Shown in pieces: positions 11,060 through 19,467 of a stretch of 64,000 nt of DNA. A program made the position numbers and the translations under genes. A model generated the notes under the pieces. It was not told the DNA's origin. It saw nothing but the letters and a program-made list of their open reading frames with translations, and ran no database searches. Every line of letters starts with the position of its first letter. The first letter of the stretch is position 1. Origin of the DNA: an uncultured Flavobacteriaceae bacterium (lineage in GTDB: Bacteria > Bacteroidota > Bacteroidia > Flavobacteriales > Flavobacteriaceae); contig CANKZQ010000001.1 in NCBI GenBank assembly GCA_947488345.1, positions 1,129,501 to 1,193,500 on the forward strand, read 5' to 3'.

Positions 11060-13192
11060 TTAAAACTTGAACGTCGCTCCGAGCAAAAAGTTTATGGTTG
11101 CCTGAGGATAAAAACCAGAGAAATTTCCTGTTCTTATACCCGTTGGACTGGTAGCATCATCAAAATCAAACGAACCAAAATATCCATTTGAAACATATTC
11201 TTTATCAAAAATGTTATTTACCAAGGCAGTCAAAACAATTGATTTAAAAATTTTGGTGGGTTTTAATTCATAAATAATGTTGATATCATTTACAAAGTAG
11301 CTTTCTAACTTAGAGCTTTCGGCGTCAATATTGCCCATATACTGCTCGCCCACATATTTTGATAATAAACTGAATTGTAAATTTTTACTTGGCTGAAATG
11401 TAAAAGCGTTTCCTGCAATAATACTCGGCGAAAATGAAATATTCGTATTACCAATATTTTGCAATTCCCCATCTAACAATGTGATAAAATCTTGATTCTT
11501 ATTATCACTGAAGGCAATATTTGGTTGGATGGAGAATTTTTTTGACAATCTAATTGCGGCATCGATTTCCAATCCTAACCGATAGCTCTTATCACTATTT
11601 GCTCTCACTCTCGCTCCAACATCATCAATAGCTCCCGTTAATACCAACTGATCTTTATAAGCCATATAATACAAATTGGTGTTTAACTGAATTTTTTCAT
11701 TTTTGAAACGCCAACCTAATTCGAAATCGTTTAGTTTTTCTGCCTCAACACCTGTATTATCTTCAAAGTCATCTCTATTTGGTTCACGATTGGCTCGTGC
11801 ATATGAGGCGTACAAATTACTTTTCGAATTCAATGCATATGTAAATCCTAATTTCGGATTAAAAAACCCAAAATTTTTATCGACATTGATTACTGCTCTA
11901 TCAGAAGTCAAGCCCTCAGTTTCATAATTCACGAAACGTCCTTGTAAATCAATATATGCACTTAATTTAGGATTCAAATTAAAGGTGGCTTTCGAAAAGA
12001 CACTGAAATCTGTTTTCTTGGCATCGCTAAAATAATAACGGTCTCTTATGTTGGTGCCCGGACTCAAATCACTACCCCAAATCACTTCTCCAAAATGATC
12101 ACCGGTATAGTTACTATAAGAAATTCCTGTAATAATGTCAAGATCATCTTTTCTATAATTCACATTAAAATTAGCAACATAAAAATCATTGTCTAGCCAT
12201 CTACGAACTATAACATCACTATCGTCTTCAATCAAATTATTGAAATCAGCTGCCGTTTCTCCTTCTTTGAATTGCTCAAAGAAACCTTCACCTTTTGTAA
12301 AGTTTAATCCCAAATTGGTAGACCAAAAATCACCGAAACGTTGGTTCCAATGTAGTTGGTAGTGATTCTGTTCGTAATTATCAGTTTCATTTTCGTATGT
12401 ATACGGATTCTGACGGCGATTCTCAACTAATTGTTCGGCTGTTAATCCGAACCACGATTGATAGGTCTGCTCTGTACCGCCAAAGGTCAAGGCTTTTATC
12501 AAGGTGTTATCATCAATGTAGGAAGCCTGCAAAAAGTATGATTTCAAATCAGTAAACGCCCGATCTACATAGCCATCAGAATAGATGTTTGAAAAACGTC
12601 CGACAACTTCAATATGATCATTAATCAATCCTGTACTTAACTTCACCGTATGCTTTCTTGTTCCGAAAGACCCAAAAGAATTGGAAACTTCCGCGAAAGC
12701 TTTATCAGAAATAGCATCGGTTAATAGATTTAAGCTTGCTCCAAAAGCCCCAGAACCGTTGGTAGATGTACCAACACCACGCTGTAATTGTAAGCTTTGT
12801 GTCGATGAAGCAAAATCTCCTAAATTCACCCAAAACGTGCCCTGACTTTCGGCATCATTATAAGGTATTCCGTTTACAGTAACATTGATACGCGTAGCAT
12901 CAGAGCCACGAACCCGCAAATACGTATAACCAACCCCTGCACCGGCGTCAGAAGTACTTACCACTGAAGGTAAAAAATTGAGTAGCATAGGGATGTCTTG
13001 CCCTAAATTACGCTTGGCTAGTTGTTTTTTTGTAAGATTAGAATGTGTTACCGGAGCATTGGCCTTTACTCTTACAGCCTTTACAACAGCTTCTTCTAGC
13101 CGTTCAACTTTTGTGGTGTCTTGTTTTTTTTCTTGACCATGTACACAGACCGACAGTACAAACAATGTCAAGAATAGAAATAAATTTTTCAT
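11060..13192 (-). CDS. TonB-dependent receptor, likely thiamine importer
   Basis: 710-residue TonB-dependent outer membrane receptor with signal peptide (ends CVHGQEKK). The plug is visible from about residue 30: VTHSNLTKKQLAKRNLGQDI (TonB box region and start of plug), the YLRVRGSDATRINVTVNGIPYND stretch and LQRGVGTSTNGSGAFGASLNL are conserved plug motifs. The 22-strand barrel follows and ends FLLGATFKF. The substrate is inferred from a TPP riboswitch in the leader (13311-13392) and from neighbouring PnuC/thiamine-binding genes: thiamine or a phosphorylated derivative. No carboxypeptidase-like N-terminal domain. The receptor class is certain; the substrate is a well-supported inference. Confidence 0.92.
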   Translation of the reverse strand: MKNLFLFLTLFVLSVCVHGQEKKQDTTKVERLEEAVVKAVRVKANAPVTHSNLTKKQLAKRNLGQDIPMLLNFLPSVVSTSDAGAGVGYTYLRVRGSDATRINVTVNGIPYNDAESQGTFWVNLGDFASSTQSLQLQRGVGTSTNGSGAFGASLNLLTDAISDKAFAEVSNSFGSFGTRKHTVKLSTGLINDHIEVVGRFSNIYSDGYVDRAFTDLKSYFLQASYIDDNTLIKALTFGGTEQTYQSWFGLTAEQLVENRRQNPYTYENETDNYEQNHYQLHWNQRFGDFWSTNLGLNFTKGEGFFEQFKEGETAADFNNLIEDDSDVIVRRWLDNDFYVANFNVNYRKDDLDIITGISYSNYTGDHFGEVIWGSDLSPGTNIRDRYYFSDAKKTDFSVFSKATFNLNPKLSAYIDLQGRFVNYETEGLTSDRAVINVDKNFGFFNPKLGFTYALNSKSNLYASYARANREPNRDDFEDNTGVEAEKLNDFELGWRFKNEKIQLNTNLYYMAYKDQLVLTGAIDDVGARVRANSDKSYRLGLEIDAAIRLSKKFSIQPNIAFSDNKNQDFITLLDGELQNIGNTNISFSPSIIAGNAFTFQPSKNLQFSLLSKYVGEQYMGNIDAESSKLESYFVNDINIIYELKPTKIFKSIVLTALVNNIFDKEYVSNGYFGSFDFDDATSPTGIRTGNFSGFYPQATINFLLGATFKF

Positions 13193-13310
13193 TACGATTA
13201 AAATTTTAATCGAATAAAAAGAGGTTATTATTCTTTATTAATATTGATTTTTAATGAAACATAGTTTCATTTATTGCACTCGCTAAAAAGGTCTACTCGC
13301 CCTTTTTTAC

Positions 13311-13392
13311 GCTCGCTTCCTTGGCAGCATTATCCGCCCAGGTTCAATGGGTATGATCTCAGCCGATATTTGGCACCCCTTTTTGAGAACGC
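13311..13392 (-). promoter_or_regulatory. TPP riboswitch (THI element)
   Basis: Read on the minus strand, this leader contains the conserved TPP aptamer cores in the right order: GGGGTGCC, then GGCTGAGA, then ATACCC...TTGAACCTG, then CGGATAATGCTGCCAAGGAAGCG. Flanking GCGTTCTC and GGAAGCG can form the closing P1 helix with a bulge. The aptamer ends about 118 nt before the ATG of the TonB-dependent receptor, so TPP should repress receptor synthesis. The expression platform (13193-13310) shows no strong terminator hairpin that I can identify, so translational control is possible. This accounts for most of the gap between the receptor and the S9 peptidase gene. Confidence 0.93.
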
Positions 13393-13494
13393 TGCAAAAA
13401 TAAATGCATTTTTCTAATTTAAAAAGATAAAACGTCTTTAAATTTAAAAGACCGACTAATTAGTACGAACATCTATGCCTATTTCAACAACTGT

Positions 13495-16293
13495 CTACTC
13501 TTTCTTATTGTCTATAAGCTCATAACCTTGATGTATTCCTTTCTCTATAGCTGGAACTCCACGTTCCATCCACTTTGGCTTTAGGTCTCCTTTTAAATAA
13601 TAATCAAAGAATTGTGCCATTCTTATGTTAAAATCTTTTCTGTTTTGAAGTTTTAGAGGCCAGTGTGGCTCTCCATTATAATTCAAAAACCATGACGGTT
13701 TTCCTAGTCGTCTCAGGCTCACAAAAAATTCAATGCCTTGATACCATGGAACATGACCATCGGCATCGTTGTGCATGATTAACAAAGGTGTATGTATTTT
13801 ATCAATATTAAATATTGGAGAGTTCTCAATATAACGCGCTGGATACTCCCAAGGAGTACCTCCAATTCTACTTTGTGTATGCTCATATTGAAACTGACGA
13901 CTTAAACCTGTCCACCAACGAATACCTCCATAGGCACTGATCATATTTGGGACCGGAGCTCCCGATTCAGCAGCTTTAAAAATATTTGTTTTCGTTACCA
14001 GATATGCGATCTGATATCCTCCCCAACTGTGTCCTTGAACACCAATATTTTCTTTGTCAACAAAGCCTTTTTCTATTAAAGATGTTACGCCCGGAATGAC
14101 ACAATTGTAAGCGCTTTCTCCAGGATAACCAATGCGGTAATGAACATCAGGGTTAAAAATAAGATAGCCTCGACTCGCATAAAAACTATAATTAATGGTT
14201 GACCTTCCCGGCGAAGGCACCCAATGCCGATTCAAGCGATTCGAGCTTTTTTCATAAAAGTTAACAATCATAGGATATTTCTTATTCGGATCAAAATTTT
14301 CGGGCTTAACCAGCATACCCGTGAGCTCTTTTCCATCTAAAGATGTCCAGTTTATTAGTTCAATAGAACCCCAATTATACTCTTTCTGTTGAGGATTTGC
14401 ATCGCTAATAACTGTCTGGGTTTTGAATGTCACATCAGAAAAACGAATATTTGGAAACTCTTGAAACGACTGTCTGCTAAAAATCACCTTATCACTTTGC
14501 TGCGCCATTATAGGAGTTGAATAGCTATAAGGTCCGTTTAACAACTGTGTCCCTTTTTTATTCTTTCTACTATACTGAAAGTACCCTGCATTTTTATTGG
14601 CCTCATTAAAAGTAGTAAGGAGCCATTTTTTCTTCGGATTTAGTGCTCGTTCTTCATTATCTAGCTGCACATATCGATACACTGTTTTATGTTCTCTTCC
14701 TTGTGTTAGTTTTATACCAGCTCCTGTTTCAGGATTGAATTGCCATATATCATAGCGATCATATAATAGAATGGATTCATCTTTTTCGGTCCAACCGGCA
14801 GAACCATAAGAATTTGGATGTCGTGGGGAATCGTTTAATTCATTGTAAAAGCGCTTTCCTTTAGTTAAGGCTTTATATTTATTCGTGACAACGTTGTGGG
14901 CAAACCATGTACTATCGACAGGATTATAACCGTAAACATATTTTCCTTTTGGACTTAAACGTACGAATCCTGGAACCTTCGTTAAGATGGTATTGCTTTC
15001 TCCTGTATGTACGTCGACAATAGCGAAATTTTGGGCACGCATTCCCGTCCATTGACTTTCCAGTTGATGTGGGCGAGAGGCACTTACTAATGCATAATTC
15101 GCATTTCCCTCATCTCCAAGAATGGCATTTGGAAAGTCTTTAGTTGCTATTTGAACCAGTTTATCATTCTTGAAGTGAATTACTGTTTGATATGATTTCT
15201 TTTTATCATTTTCTAATTGTAATTCTTGCACTGTATATAATCTAGGCTCATCATATGTCCAAACTTCTACATTAACAATTTCATCATCAATAAGCGTTGT
15301 GTCTTTTACAATTGGCGGCTCAGCTAAACCAAAGAATAATTTTGATTCATCTTTAGAAAAATGAATTATTCCATCAGATGACACTCTATATCCCTCGGGA
15401 GAAGAACTTGCATCCAATACCTTTTTCGCTTGAGATGCTCCTTCGGCCCATCGATACAATTCATTGGGTCTAACTTGAACTTTCGTTGTATCGGTATCAA
15501 CTATAAAAGCGAGGTTTTTACCCGTTTCACTTAAGCTAAGTTGATAATAAGATGCCTTTTTGGTTTTATAAACTTCGGTTAGCTTATTGTTATCTAAATT
15601 TAAAACGTAAACGCCAGAACTATTTTTTTTATCTTCATCTCCCGTGGTGGTAAAAGCAAAACGTTTCCCTTTTTCGGCAAACGAAAAATTAGTAACATAT
15701 TTAAACGTGTCTTGCTTTTTAGTCACTAAATTTCTCAATACCACATGATATCCATTCTTTTTACTTACTTTTTTAATCTTCTTTTTCTTTTCTTTTGTTT
15801 CTAAAGAATCTTTCTTTTCTTTCTTTTTAGGTTTAATTTCCTCTAATTCATAGGCTATATATCCTGACCATTTCTCTGGAATTTTATATGATTTTACATG
15901 CGCTATTTTTGTAAGAGATTTTTCATTTACATTAAAAATTCCCAATGAGTCTTTCGGCATTTTATCCTTCTTCATCTTTCTTCGTTTCATAGCAGAGATA
16001 CTATCTTTAAAAGGCTTTATAGTGAACAAAGCAAACTTTGAATCATTCGTAAATTTTCCTTTTTGACCTCTAGGGTATTCAAAAAGAGTTACTGCTTTGG
16101 TGGTTTTAATCTTTAAAAAATGATCTTTTTCTCCCTTTTCCAAAGAATACATGATAAGATTTCCATTGGGCGAAATACTTCGATTTTTAATCGTTTTCCA
16201 TATTTCAAAATCGGAGTGGTCTAAAGTTTTCTTTTGCGCAAATGAAAAAGTCGTCAAAAGAATAACAAGGTAGAAAAGTGTAGGTTTCATCAT
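13495..16293 (-). CDS. Secreted S9 family (prolyl oligopeptidase-like) peptidase
   Basis: 932-residue exported serine peptidase; signal peptide ends FSFAQKK. Residues about 30-650 form a beta-propeller-like region; the C-terminal alpha/beta-hydrolase carries the nucleophile in GVQGHSWGGYQIAYL, the Asp in HNDADGHVPW and the His in NGEPHWPL, giving a complete catalytic triad. Such enzymes act on short peptides in the periplasm. An unusual Lys/Glu-rich block (about residues 153-180) interrupts the propeller. No type IX secretion tail is seen. It sits between arfB and the riboswitch-controlled receptor, both on the same strand, but its 141-nt and 302-nt flanks suggest independent transcription. 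Confidence 0.92.
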   Translation of the reverse strand: MMKPTLFYLVILLTTFSFAQKKTLDHSDFEIWKTIKNRSISPNGNLIMYSLEKGEKDHFLKIKTTKAVTLFEYPRGQKGKFTNDSKFALFTIKPFKDSISAMKRRKMKKDKMPKDSLGIFNVNEKSLTKIAHVKSYKIPEKWSGYIAYELEEIKPKKKEKKDSLETKEKKKKIKKVSKKNGYHVVLRNLVTKKQDTFKYVTNFSFAEKGKRFAFTTTGDEDKKNSSGVYVLNLDNNKLTEVYKTKKASYYQLSLSETGKNLAFIVDTDTTKVQVRPNELYRWAEGASQAKKVLDASSSPEGYRVSSDGIIHFSKDESKLFFGLAEPPIVKDTTLIDDEIVNVEVWTYDEPRLYTVQELQLENDKKKSYQTVIHFKNDKLVQIATKDFPNAILGDEGNANYALVSASRPHQLESQWTGMRAQNFAIVDVHTGESNTILTKVPGFVRLSPKGKYVYGYNPVDSTWFAHNVVTNKYKALTKGKRFYNELNDSPRHPNSYGSAGWTEKDESILLYDRYDIWQFNPETGAGIKLTQGREHKTVYRYVQLDNEERALNPKKKWLLTTFNEANKNAGYFQYSRKNKKGTQLLNGPYSYSTPIMAQQSDKVIFSRQSFQEFPNIRFSDVTFKTQTVISDANPQQKEYNWGSIELINWTSLDGKELTGMLVKPENFDPNKKYPMIVNFYEKSSNRLNRHWVPSPGRSTINYSFYASRGYLIFNPDVHYRIGYPGESAYNCVIPGVTSLIEKGFVDKENIGVQGHSWGGYQIAYLVTKTNIFKAAESGAPVPNMISAYGGIRWWTGLSRQFQYEHTQSRIGGTPWEYPARYIENSPIFNIDKIHTPLLIMHNDADGHVPWYQGIEFFVSLRRLGKPSWFLNYNGEPHWPLKLQNRKDFNIRMAQFFDYYLKGDLKPKWMERGVPAIEKGIHQGYELIDNKKE

Positions 16294-16434
16294 AACGTGT
16301 TTAACTTAACGACATAAATATACTATAAATCAATAGTATCTTACTCGCTAAGTGTAAGTTTCAAAATCCTTCAATATATATGAATAGTTAAAAAACATGA
16401 CGACCTAGATATCAGGAAAAAGAATTCACTCGTT

Positions 16435-16839
16435 TTAATCCAAATTTGGCTTCTTCCTTGAATCTTTCTTTTCTGAATGCTTTTTTTTAGACGTTAATCT
16501 TTTTTGAATCGCACCTTTAGATGGTTTTGTTTTTTTTCTTCTCTTAGGAACTATTAAGGCTTTCGTAATTATGTCTAGGAATCTGTCAATTACAATTTCT
16601 TTATTGCGATGCTGACTTCTGCTTTCGTCACATTGTAATACCAACACATGAATTTTTGTTAGTTTGATAGCTAAATTTTTAAGTAATCGTTCTTTTTCTT
16701 CATCAGAAAATTCTTTTGAATTTTCTAAATCAAAGGTGAGTTCAATTTTTGACGACACTTTATTTACGTGTTGACCTCCAGCTCCTGAACTTCGAATGGC
16801 TTTAAATGACAGTTCTTTGATGAGACTTTCTTTGTTCAC
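16435..16839 (-). CDS. arfB: Alternative ribosome-rescue factor ArfB (YaeJ-like)
   Basis: 134-residue protein with the release-factor GGQ loop in RSSGAGGQHVNKVSSKIEL (about residues 16-35) and no codon-recognition domain, as in ArfB/ICT1. The C-terminal tail from about residue 98 is strongly basic (PKRRKKTKPSKG...KKKHSEKKDSRKK), matching the ArfB tail that enters the empty mRNA channel. It hydrolyses peptidyl-tRNA on stalled ribosomes. Its ATG overlaps the last base of the upstream kinase gene (shared position 16839), so it is the terminal gene of the pnuC operon. Confidence 0.93.
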   Translation of the reverse strand: MNKESLIKELSFKAIRSSGAGGQHVNKVSSKIELTFDLENSKEFSDEEKERLLKNLAIKLTKIHVLVLQCDESRSQHRNKEIVIDRFLDIITKALIVPKRRKKTKPSKGAIQKRLTSKKKHSEKKDSRKKPNLD

Positions 16840-17495
16840 TAGAGATTATAATCGTTATTTGAATCGATGTTTTGATGTAAGAAATGCATATCAACATCGG
16901 TTAGTGTATCAGAAAAACTATCAAGATCTTTGCGCTCATCTAATAGTATATCTATGGCATCAGTTGCCTCTTTCAAGCGCCGTTGTTTGTCGCCTTTTAA
17001 CAACATATATGGGCGGTTGTACTTTTTTAAGGCATTTTCAAAAGCATTAAACATCTCTAAACGTTGCTCTGGTCTGTCACGCAAATCATCAGCCTCCCAT
17101 GGAGTATCTATATAGGTTAATAAATACAAATCATATTGATTTTCTAAAGCCGCCTTGTCTAAAAATGCATCCACATGACCTCCATAGTATTCTTCAGAAT
17201 ATACTTTAGTCTCAAGCAAATCGGTATCGCAAATCAGTAATTTATCGGCTTTCTTAGCCAATTTATTTTCCAGTTGCATTTGTCCGATGGCAATCGGAAT
17301 CAGATCAGAATTTTCACAAGTTTTACGTTCATTATTCCATTTATCCTGTAAATATTCTCGTGCATACTCTGGTGCCCAAACGGTATTATAATGACGTGCT
17401 AATTGATTAGAAAGTGTTGTTTTGCCTGTAGATTCAGGGCCAAACAATACTACCTTTATGATGTTTGCAGGGTCTTGTTTAAGCTTTTTTTCCAT
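16839..17495 (-). CDS. NadR-like kinase (nicotinamide riboside or thiamine kinase candidate)
   Basis: 218-residue P-loop kinase. Walker A is GPESTGKTTLS (about residues 19-29), followed by VWAPEYAREYL and LLICDTDLLETKVYSEEYYGG, the pattern of the NadR C-terminal ribosylnicotinamide kinase domain (compare WEYxREF and DTDFxTT). There is no adenylyltransferase or HTH domain. Such kinases usually phosphorylate nicotinamide riboside delivered by PnuC. Here, however, it follows a PnuC-family gene and a thiamine-binding protein, near a TPP-riboswitch receptor, so thiamine may be the substrate instead. Its start overlaps the end of the transporter gene by 40 nt, implying coupled translation. The C-terminal 25 residues are acidic and poorly conserved in appearance. 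Confidence 0.8.
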   Translation of the reverse strand: MEKKLKQDPANIIKVVLFGPESTGKTTLSNQLARHYNTVWAPEYAREYLQDKWNNERKTCENSDLIPIAIGQMQLENKLAKKADKLLICDTDLLETKVYSEEYYGGHVDAFLDKAALENQYDLYLLTYIDTPWEADDLRDRPEQRLEMFNAFENALKKYNRPYMLLKGDKQRRLKEATDAIDILLDERKDLDSFSDTLTDVDMHFLHQNIDSNNDYNL

Positions 17496-18088
17496 GCTAT
17501 ATATCCAAAAATTGCGATAAATGTAAATCCAAAATATTGAAAACTTGTAAAGGTAAAGCCTTTATAGAAATATAAAGGTACAGAAATGATATTTCCAATT
17601 ATCCAAAAAATCCAATTTTCTATCTTACGTTTAGCCATCAACCACATTCCTACAAAGAAAATAGCCGTAGTAACTGTATCTACATAAGCAACCCAGCTTG
17701 TCCATTTATCGAAATTTTTATACACTAGGTATACAAATACTAGGGTTGCTATAAAAATACCTATGCCTACTATTTGTTCTTTTCTGGTTGTTCTAGAAAT
17801 TGGGGTCACATGCGTTGCATCAACTTTGCGAGTCCATATATACCACCCATATACGCTCATAATAAAATAGTACGCATTAATCATCATATCGCCCAACAAC
17901 TCCCATTTTACCAACAAATAAACAAATATTGCCGTGCTAATCATTCCTGTAGGAAATACCCAAATTTTATTTTGTTTCGAAAACCACACAGATAGGAATC
18001 CAAAAATCACCGCAACTATTTCTAAACTGATATCTGCGGTTGAATACGTTTCATATTGACTGAAAAAAAATTCAAAAATCTGGTTCAT
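17456..18088 (-). CDS. PnuC/PnuT-family vitamin transporter
   Basis: Seven-helix inner-membrane carrier of the PnuC family (about 210 residues). Key signature YFIMSVYGWYIWTRK with the WYxW substrate-binding motif lies in the middle; hydrophobic helices include LEIVAVIFGFLSVWF, FPTGMISTAIFVYLLV and IVGIGIFIATLVFVYLV. I chose the ATG at 18088; a TTG at 18112 is possible. PnuC moves nicotinamide riboside, PnuT moves thiamine by facilitated diffusion trapped by a kinase. The preceding gene codes a thiamine-binding protein and overlaps this one by 17 nt, favouring thiamine. The downstream kinase would trap the substrate. Family certain, substrate not. Confidence 0.88.
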   Translation of the reverse strand: MNQIFEFFFSQYETYSTADISLEIVAVIFGFLSVWFSKQNKIWVFPTGMISTAIFVYLLVKWELLGDMMINAYYFIMSVYGWYIWTRKVDATHVTPISRTTRKEQIVGIGIFIATLVFVYLVYKNFDKWTSWVAYVDTVTTAIFFVGMWLMAKRKIENWIFWIIGNIISVPLYFYKGFTFTSFQYFGFTFIAIFGYIAWKKSLNKTLQTS

Positions 18089-18332
18089 AATCGCTTCTAT
18101 CTGTTTTAACAATTTTGAGTAGTATCAATCCGTTTTCAATCAAACTAAAGGCATCTTTTATTTCTGTCGTTAGCAGTTTCATCACCGTATCATAGTCTCC
18201 ATATACTTGAGTGCTTAATGGGTTTTCAAGAACGACCAATCCAGAGGCTCGTAATTGTTTTATAAAATGCATAATGGGCTCTTCAAACTCATTTTGAAGA
18301 GGTGTTAATGTTAATTCGACAGATATGTTCAT
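18072..18332 (-). CDS. YkoF/MTH1187-type thiamine-binding protein
   Basis: 86-residue protein matching the small thiamine-binding (DUF77) family: NISVELTLTPLQ...EPIMHFIKQLRASGL then LSTQVYGDYDTVMKLLTTEI, where the conserved STQV-G-Y/D motif forms the ligand pocket, and ILLKIVKTD at the end forms the last strand. Family members are ferredoxin-like dimers that bind thiamine or precursors. It precedes the PnuC-family transporter and overlaps it, so the protein likely buffers or hands over vitamin taken up by that carrier. Only 3 nt separate it from the pcrB stop. Residue identification was by eye; I consider the family assignment fairly good. Confidence 0.78.
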   Translation of the reverse strand: MNISVELTLTPLQNEFEEPIMHFIKQLRASGLVVLENPLSTQVYGDYDTVMKLLTTEIKDAFSLIENGLILLKIVKTDRSDYEPDF

Positions 18333-18335
18333 TGT

Positions 18336-19058
18336 TTATTTCTTTAAGTGATCAAAAAAAGAAAGGTTTTTTTCAAAAGCCGTACCAATAACTACCAAAT
18401 CTGCTCCGGCAAGATAGGCCCCTTCTAATTGCTCTTTTGTGCGTATACCTCCACCTACAATCAAGGGAACCGACAAACTATTTTTCACGCGCTTTATAAT
18501 TGTTGGTGCTACCGTTTCGGTAGCTCCTGAACCTGCTTCTAAATAGATTAATTTTTTACCCGAATATTCACCTGCCAAGGCTGTATTTTCAATTAAATCG
18601 GTATTATCTTGACACATGGGTTTTGTATTACTTACTCGCTGCACGGCAGTTTCAACACCGCCATCAATTAAAATATAACCTGTTGGAATAATCTCTAGAT
18701 TGGTGTTTTTTAAACGTGGAATTGATTGTACTTGCTGTTCAATTAGATACTCAGAATTTCGACCAGAAATCAATGATAAAAAAAGCAAGGCATCTGCCTC
18801 CTCAGTCACGTGCGAATAATCGCCAGGGAATAATATAACTGGTAATTTCGTTTCTCCTTTGATGGCTTTGACCACATTTTCAGTTTTATTATAGGTATCA
18901 GTGCTACCTCCAACAAAAATGTGCGTGGCAATTGATGCATTTATCTTGTTCATAACCATTGGCAAGGTCTCAAGAACAACTTTATCGGGATCGATAAGCA
19001 CTGCCAATAGCTTCTGTTCTTCTTGTATGGCCTTTAATATGTGGTTGTAATTGTGCAT
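18336..19058 (-). CDS. Geranylgeranylglyceryl phosphate synthase (PcrB/GGGPS family)
   Basis: 240-residue TIM-barrel prenyltransferase. Conserved segments are LLAVLIDPDK (glycerol phosphate side), THIFVGGSTDT, VILFPGDYSHV, YLEAGSGA and the phosphate-binding VPLIVGGGIRTKEQ...ADLVVIGTA. It couples sn-glycerol-1-phosphate to a polyprenyl diphosphate with an ether bond; group II bacterial members make geranylgeranyl (Bacteroidota) products. The ATG at 19058 is preferred over an upstream in-frame start inside the BLUF gene, which would add 18 poorly conserved residues. It lies 13 nt after the BLUF gene stop, so co-expression is likely. A UbiA prenyltransferase for the next step may be the gene at 43292-44227. 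Confidence 0.93.
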   Translation of the reverse strand: MHNYNHILKAIQEEQKLLAVLIDPDKVVLETLPMVMNKINASIATHIFVGGSTDTYNKTENVVKAIKGETKLPVILFPGDYSHVTEEADALLFLSLISGRNSEYLIEQQVQSIPRLKNTNLEIIPTGYILIDGGVETAVQRVSNTKPMCQDNTDLIENTALAGEYSGKKLIYLEAGSGATETVAPTIIKRVKNSLSVPLIVGGGIRTKEQLEGAYLAGADLVVIGTAFEKNLSFFDHLKK

Positions 19059-19071
19059 GAAAATAAAAAAG

Positions 19072-19467
19072 CTAAGATAGAATTTCTTCTTGAAAAGCTT
19101 TGATAAGTTCAATATCTGTTGAGCTATATAATTTATCTAAAAGGGAGAATTCATCAAATGTGGCTTTTTCATCGTTCCAAAAGTCAAGAATAGCCATATT
19201 CCAATTCATCATCGTTCTTTTTTCAATTTCTTTATCCAGAATCATGGAAACATCAGTATGTCGTGTATCATTTTTAATGCGATTGTACAATGCATCAATC
19301 ACCTCGTCATCACCTTCAATTAACTGAACAATTTTTGTTTTGCTTAAAAAAATATAGCCGGTAATATGATGCATTTGGTTTCGCTCTTGCGAATTCTGAA
19401 GCAGCTCTTGAAACTCACTTTTTTTAATACCCTTATCAGGTATAGATTTATACATGATTGCCTTCAT
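19072..19467 (-). CDS. BLUF-domain blue-light sensor
   Basis: 131-residue stand-alone BLUF protein. The flavin-site residues can be followed: Tyr6 in MKAIMYKS, Asn in RNQMHHITGYIFL, Gln in KIVQLIEGDDEVI, and the later NDTRHTDVSMI plus RTMMNWNMAILDF with the semi-conserved Trp/Met. This Tyr-Asn-Gln set supports a functional FAD photocycle. There is no effector domain, so output would go through a partner protein. It lies directly upstream of the GGGP synthase gene (13-nt gap) and downstream of a phosphopantetheinyl transferase gene (73-nt gap). Family call good; light response is inferred. Confidence 0.87.
   Translation of the reverse strand: MKAIMYKSIPDKGIKKSEFQELLQNSQERNQMHHITGYIFLSKTKIVQLIEGDDEVIDALYNRIKNDTRHTDVSMILDKEIEKRTMMNWNMAILDFWNDEKATFDEFSLLDKLYSSTDIELIKAFQEEILS

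Follow-up and report, generated by a model that had tools for sequence, protein, structure and literature searches.

A NadR-like kinase encoded beside a PnuC-family carrier is a candidate thiamine kinase of the Flavobacteriaceae

Salvaged thiamine (vitamin B1) is activated by thiamine pyrophosphokinase (TPK, ThiN), which makes thiamine pyrophosphate (TPP) directly, or, in Escherichia coli, by ThiK (YcfN), which converts thiamine to thiamine monophosphate (TMP), the substrate of ThiL. The kinase domain of NadR, like thymidylate kinases, transfers one phosphate. The accessible portion of one earlier study lists ThiK, ThiM and ThiN as B1 salvage enzymes and NadR as the enzyme for nicotinamide riboside (NR), and that portion names no NadR-like thiamine kinase (PMC6593275). 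Nor is such an enzyme named in the titles and abstract openings of the open-licence literature that we searched; an earlier prediction elsewhere is possible. In Bacteroides, the OMthi-pnuT-tnr3 operon brings together a TPP riboswitch, a TonB receptor, a PnuC-family carrier and a thiamine-activating enzyme, Tnr3, which is termed a thiamine pyrophosphorylase in the accessible text (PMC5613172). Here we describe a related locus in a 64,000-nucleotide stretch of the genome of an uncultured Flavobacteriaceae bacterium (the window; assembly GCA_947488345.1, contig CANKZQ010000001.1, positions 1,129,501 to 1,193,500). Comparative genomics makes it quite likely that the activating enzyme here is a NadR-type thiamine kinase, working with the carrier PnuT and with ThiL.

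Transcribed from the minus strand, the locus runs from a BLUF protein and a PcrB-type synthase through a trio of genes (18332-16839 in the list of open reading frames), encoding an 86-aa Thiamine_BP-like protein, PnuC and a P-loop kinase, to ArfB, an S9 peptidase, the TPP riboswitch and the TonB receptor. ArfB and the peptidase thus separate the trio from the riboswitch. Within the trio the genes overlap head to tail, by 17 bases between the 86-aa gene and PnuC and by 40 bases between PnuC and the kinase. An earlier note on this DNA, made from its letters, had described the overlapping trio on one strand, a TPP riboswitch ahead of a TonB-dependent receptor and a trio devoid of a riboswitch of its own; all of this holds, and a scan of the window with RF00059 found no TPP riboswitch match directly upstream of the trio or of PnuC. 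Compared with the Bacteroides operon, as the accessible text presents it (PMC5613172), Tnr3 is replaced by a NadR-like kinase, which lies upstream of the riboswitch and not under its control. The window kinase shares fold and sequence family with the RNK domain of NadR, but it has no NMN adenylyltransferase (NMNAT) domain, is linked to a thiamine receptor, a riboswitch and a PnuT-like carrier, is complementary to TPK in distribution and is accompanied by ThiL. The proposed reaction is that of ThiK, a separate protein family. TPK likewise activates salvaged thiamine and by profile appears mutually substitutable with the kinase, although the two protein families are unrelated.

The distribution of thiamine genes was compared across 149 family genomes from 148 genera, using 143 of the 146 kinase matches listed, with three weak ones dropped, here and in the riboswitch comparison below. 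The kinase is present in 142 genomes, ThiL in 148 (147 over the cut-off) and PnuC in 147; ThiC is found in 29, TPK in 11 and ThiE/TenI over the cut-off in 48. ThiK exceeds its model cut-off in none of the 149, with 19 weak matches below it, one of them in the window genome. ThiC is absent from 120 of the 149, which should therefore need B1 or its precursors from outside, and 116 of these 120 also lack TPK. All 116 carry the kinase, as do all 98 genomes without ThiC, TPK and a ThiE match of at least 95 bits. Seven family genomes have no kinase. Five of them have TPK, and the other two, which have ThiC, are the only family genomes without PnuC, so that PnuC never occurs in the family set without the kinase or TPK (Fisher's test for kinase versus TPK, p = 1.6e-5, relatedness ignored). 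The window's own genome has ThiL, two copies of the kinase and a single PnuC, and profile searches returned no match for TPK, ThiC or ThiE/TenI; the best ThiK score was 26.6 bits against a cut-off of 299, at a place other than the window kinase. These profiles might have spoken against a thiamine kinase; they speak for it.

Gene order is conserved as well. Loci from named genomes, among them Tenacibaculum, Polaribacter, Lutibacter and Winogradskyella, were taken as the 80 best of 573 confirmed stretches. In every one of these 80 the gene immediately upstream of the kinase is PnuC, and in 79 the two overlap, so the trio arrangement is not due to chance. ArfB is present in 69 of these 80 loci, PcrB in 51 and a Thiamine_BP-like gene in 34. 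Downstream of the kinase, 61 of the 80 have a receptor relative (at least 40% identity), including 59 of the 67 loci with at least 3 kb of downstream sequence, and a riboswitch model made from 8 sequences places a TPP site in 64 of the 80, always downstream and on the kinase strand. Across the family, 112 genomes have both a listed kinase match and one of the 150 riboswitch matches listed. Among these matches, a riboswitch follows the kinase on the same strand at a distance of 25 to 7,643 bases in 78 of the 112, and in none does an opposite-strand riboswitch lie within 10 kb of the kinase.

Two kinase-less genomes with TPK retain a recognisable form of the locus. Both G145 and G100 carry TPK elsewhere and have no kinase match, and in each PcrB, PnuC, DUF4301, ArfB, the riboswitch and the receptor can be identified, with approximately 370 bases between PnuC and DUF4301 that hold no kinase reading frame. 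The remaining gene order is close in G145; in G100, PcrB and PnuC are separated by other genes, and ArfB and the riboswitch by about 5 kb. In the G100 gap a degenerate piece of the kinase is still present, scoring above all 300 shuffled controls. In the G145 gap (locus L251) the single best kinase match likewise outscores all 300 shuffles, but when scores are averaged over 19 queries, 5 of the 300 shuffles reach the same value, and the signal there is marginal. A third kinase-less genome, G016, has the order riboswitch, receptor, PnuC, TPK, much like the Bacteroides operon in the accessible description (PMC5613172).

Outside the family, 30 genomes of the same order and class could be compared: TPK is found in 0 of the 26 with an NMNAT-less kinase and in 4 of the 4 without one, one of which carries only a full-length NadR (p = 3.6e-5, relatedness ignored). 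Kinases were called NMNAT-less by frame length and tree, and three long frames were checked by Pfam, one of them being fused to an aldose-epimerase domain. A riboswitch and receptor lie just downstream of the kinase in 6 of the 26 loci (L188, L189, L193, L198, L203 and L216); the L188 riboswitch also passes the Rfam cut-off, and at 20 and 22 bits those of L203 and L216 are weak matches. No riboswitch was found in the 11 NadR-labelled regions L204-L214, which span only 2.2-2.8 kb each; in 8 of them an NMNAT domain was confirmed. At class level, the four genomes G194, G288, G327 and G217 carry an NMNAT-domain NadR plus a separate NMNAT-less kinase. Among 198 genomes of the phylum, 53 give strong kinase-profile matches, NadR kinase domains included, 95 have TPK and 58 have neither. 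ThiL exceeds its cut-off in all 53 with a strong kinase match and fails to do so in 47 of the 87 with TPK and no kinase.

Because ThiL always accompanies the kinase in this set, and the fold relatives of the kinase are NadR and thymidylate kinases, these comparisons suggest that the kinase product is TMP. Taken together, the complementarity with TPK and ThiC, the linkage to riboswitch and receptor in the family and in some other families of the class, and the presence of ThiL with every strong kinase match of the phylum set support the proposal, made in the earlier note, that the NadR-like kinase may phosphorylate thiamine. In the pathway that we propose, the riboswitch-controlled receptor would carry thiamine over the outer membrane and the PnuC-family protein would serve as the inner-membrane thiamine facilitator PnuT, with the 86-aa protein perhaps keeping thiamine close to the carrier. 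The kinase would then phosphorylate thiamine to TMP and so trap it, and ThiL, whose gene lies at a different site in the genome, would make TPP.

As a protein, the window kinase matches the NadR model TIGR01526 over the kinase part only (model positions 164-320 of 325; 120.8 bits against a cut-off of 341); at 218 aa it has no NMNAT domain, and the N-terminal half of the model is unmatched. Its nearest relatives in the PDB are 9x6f, 8x7f and 1lw7 (NadR) by sequence and, by fold, NadR 8x7f and 1lw7, followed by thymidylate kinases (Foldseek; model mean pLDDT 87.4). It matches neither the ThiK model TIGR02721 nor PF04263, the TPK catalytic domain, PF13521 being its only Pfam match. A residue signature of specificity was sought between 45 NMNAT-less kinases and 12 NadR-labelled rows, but at the thresholds applied only two positions differ and the signature is not convincing; of the 12, L211, L212 and L213 match NadR over its kinase part without covering the adenylyltransferase domain, so the label is secure for 9.

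The carrier offers a further comparison. A tree of 62 PnuC proteins (the kinase and PnuC trees were both built on selections of loci) places the window PnuC in a 43-member clade with support of 96/96. The same clade holds the PnuC of the TPK operon in G016 and six PnuCs whose genes immediately follow a TPP riboswitch. None of the 11 PnuCs beside NadR-type genes, 8 of which have a confirmed NMNAT domain, falls inside it, and the PnuT-like character that the earlier note saw in the carrier is thereby strengthened. Two long-branch PnuCs (L220 and L221) were left out of the tree, and the syntenic PnuC of L251 (one of two) is not included. N71 versus Q separates the PnuC groups in the alignment (31/31 versus 10/11), a difference from which no functional reading is possible. 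For the 86-aa protein, all 22 aligned homologues, the window's included, match PF01910 at E ≤ 0.01 (best 1.5e-8), and a comparison of the protein with the PDB gave no meaningful match.

Several observations weigh against a thiamine kinase. Hidden Markov models label the kinase NadR and the carrier an NR transporter, and no simple residue signature sets the kinase apart from NadR kinase domains. In the kinase tree, three groups, namely family kinases, class-level kinases and one set of full-length NadR proteins, meet in an unresolved trichotomy. The riboswitch sits downstream of the trio, and 34 of the 112 genomes do not have riboswitch and kinase within 10 kb of each other among the matches listed. 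Kinase and TPK occur together in 6 of 142 family genomes, and in genus g127, where TPK is present in 9 of 9 genomes, 7 of the 9 also have a strong kinase match. Genome G081 (66% complete) has the kinase and no ThiL match, and in G057, which has the kinase, ThiL is weak and below the cut-off. The TPK genomes G016, G121 and G145 keep ThiL without ThiC or ThiE, so that the presence of ThiL alone is no proof of TMP. At class level, PnuCs next to TPP-linked kinases group with NadR-adjacent PnuCs, as does the PnuC from the TPK operon in L228, and PnuC sequence alone thus does not reveal the substrate.

One alternative is ordinary NAD salvage, in which PnuC would import NR, the kinase would make nicotinamide mononucleotide (NMN) and the thiamine receptor would be a chance neighbour. 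The NCBIfam equivalog model for PnuC (NR transporter) matches the window carrier above its cut-off, the NadR model matches the kinase part, if below its cut-off, and the nearest solved relatives are NadR. We nevertheless regard NAD salvage as unlikely, since it predicts neither the complementarity of the kinase with TPK and ThiC, nor the lack of a kinase at the syntenic locus of the two TPK genomes, nor the riboswitch linkage in both family and class; the window kinase is without an NMNAT domain, and the four class-level genomes named above already have a separate NadR with one.

It is very improbable, in our estimate, that the kinase is instead an analogue of TPK and makes TPP directly. It does occupy the place of TPK in TPP-receptor-PnuC-TPK operons such as L250 (we take Tnr3 of the Bacteroides operon to be of the TPK type as well), and the two are complementary in profile, yet ThiL is never missing with the kinase among the 198 phylum genomes and often missing with TPK alone, and the fold relatives transfer one phosphate. 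We give as little credence to a kinase whose substrate is another B1 vitamer brought in by the same carrier, for example hydroxymethylpyrimidine (HMP) or the thiazole alcohol. Thiamine transporters may accept precursors as well, according to the part of one report that was available (PMC8552899), but in the window's genome nothing matches ThiE, which would join the two halves, the kinase is kept in each of the 98 genomes without ThiC, a strong ThiE match and TPK, and the enzyme that substitutes for it, TPK, acts on whole thiamine.

With a thiamine kinase as the favoured reading of the locus, the step from imported thiamine to ThiL, previously without an assigned enzyme, has a candidate in 142 of 149 family genomes. 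We think it likely, somewhat less so than for the window itself, that NMNAT-less kinases of the NadR-RNK type form an unrecognised thiamine kinase family, the standard salvage enzyme of Flavobacteriaceae and of much of the wider class, which is non-orthologous to ThiK and has traded places with TPK at the same PnuT locus; many pairs of PnuC and a NadR-like kinase now annotated as NR salvage would then really be for B1 uptake. If this is true, B1 and B3 phenotypes predicted from genomes and metagenomes will change wherever such a pair is now read as NR salvage, and the exchange of TPK for an enzyme of nucleoside-kinase fold will be a further case of non-orthologous replacement.

The features of the locus are collected in Table 1. 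PnuC is given there from its ATG; the listed open reading frame begins at a TTG at 18112. The S9 peptidase between trio and riboswitch is most likely unrelated to the function of the locus: among the fetched loci searched, it was found in those of the window's own genome, plus one weak 24% match elsewhere. Counts of predicted promoters and terminators showed no excess over shuffles.

Table 1. Features of the candidate thiamine uptake locus, in window coordinates and in order of transcription.
Feature	Position	Strand	Match
PcrB-type geranylgeranylglyceryl phosphate synthase, a conserved neighbour immediately upstream of the trio	18336..19112	-	NF003198 above cut-off
Thiamine-binding-protein-like (MTH1187/YkoF-like), 86 aa	18072..18332	-	PF01910 21.6 bits, under cut-off 24.9
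PnuC-family carrier, read as thiamine facilitator PnuT, 210 aa from ATG	17456..18088	-	PF04973 186 bits
Single-domain NadR-RNK-like P-loop kinase, 218 aa, read as thiamine kinase (thiamine to TMP)	16839..17495	-	PF13521 AAA_28 152 bits
ArfB-type peptidyl-tRNA hydrolase, conserved bystander	16435..16839	-	NF006718 above cut-off
S9 peptidase	13495..16293	-	PF00326
TPP riboswitch aptamer	13300..13390	-	RF00059 39.2 bits, E 6e-5
TonB-dependent outer-membrane receptor, OMthi/Omr1-like	11060..13192	-	PF00593 and PF07715 (Plug, TonB barrel)

The TPP riboswitch of the window is weak but credible. Its score lies below the RF00059 gathering score of 54.3, and it is missed at that level; it is also the sole TPP match at E ≤ 0.001 in its genome. 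Its core motifs are kept in an alignment with 7 homologues (8 sequences in all), and sites sharing the same core precede related receptors in other genomes. An RF00059 match was found in 138 of the 149 family genomes and exceeds the Rfam cut-off in 44. By eye, scores are approximately 60-80 bits for riboswitches close to ThiC, against mostly 38-55 near the kinase locus. The latter fall largely short of the Rfam cut-off, and scans at gathering level would therefore miss most of the receptor class. A crude contiguous-stem test for a closing helix in receptor-type riboswitches (35 of 64 matches) gave a mean of 4.4 versus 4.26 when shuffled, from which we draw no conclusion.

The second kinase copy of the window genome (L032:6218-6868) lies on the same contig, 5.7 kb past the window end, and is 70% identical to the first. 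It stands directly behind a gene with MutS domain V, near moaC and with no PnuC, and might be redundant or have a different substrate. Elsewhere the kinase is found in fusions: with DUF4301 in a single 706-aa frame (L040:5769-7889), several other genomes having a kinase frame of 700-800 aa, and with an aldose 1-epimerase domain in one 498-aa open frame of G217 (L198:4166-5659), at a locus with PnuC, a TPP riboswitch and a receptor. A DUF4301 gene (for example L051:6219-7787) was found at 36 of the 49 family loci and at 25 of the 80 named-genome loci, though not in the window, and may have a thiamine-related role.

In L005, from G119 of the same genus, the kinase is 79% identical to that of the window and PnuC only 44%, as though one carrier had replaced another at this site; three PnuC subtypes were found beside family kinases. 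In six family genomes (L244-L249) a TPP riboswitch is followed immediately by a PnuC of another type, additional or alternative, that makes up a clade of its own. In L224:1362-6049, a TPP riboswitch, a receptor, TPK and a sodium:solute symporter (PF00474) follow in a row, and there the symporter may replace PnuT.

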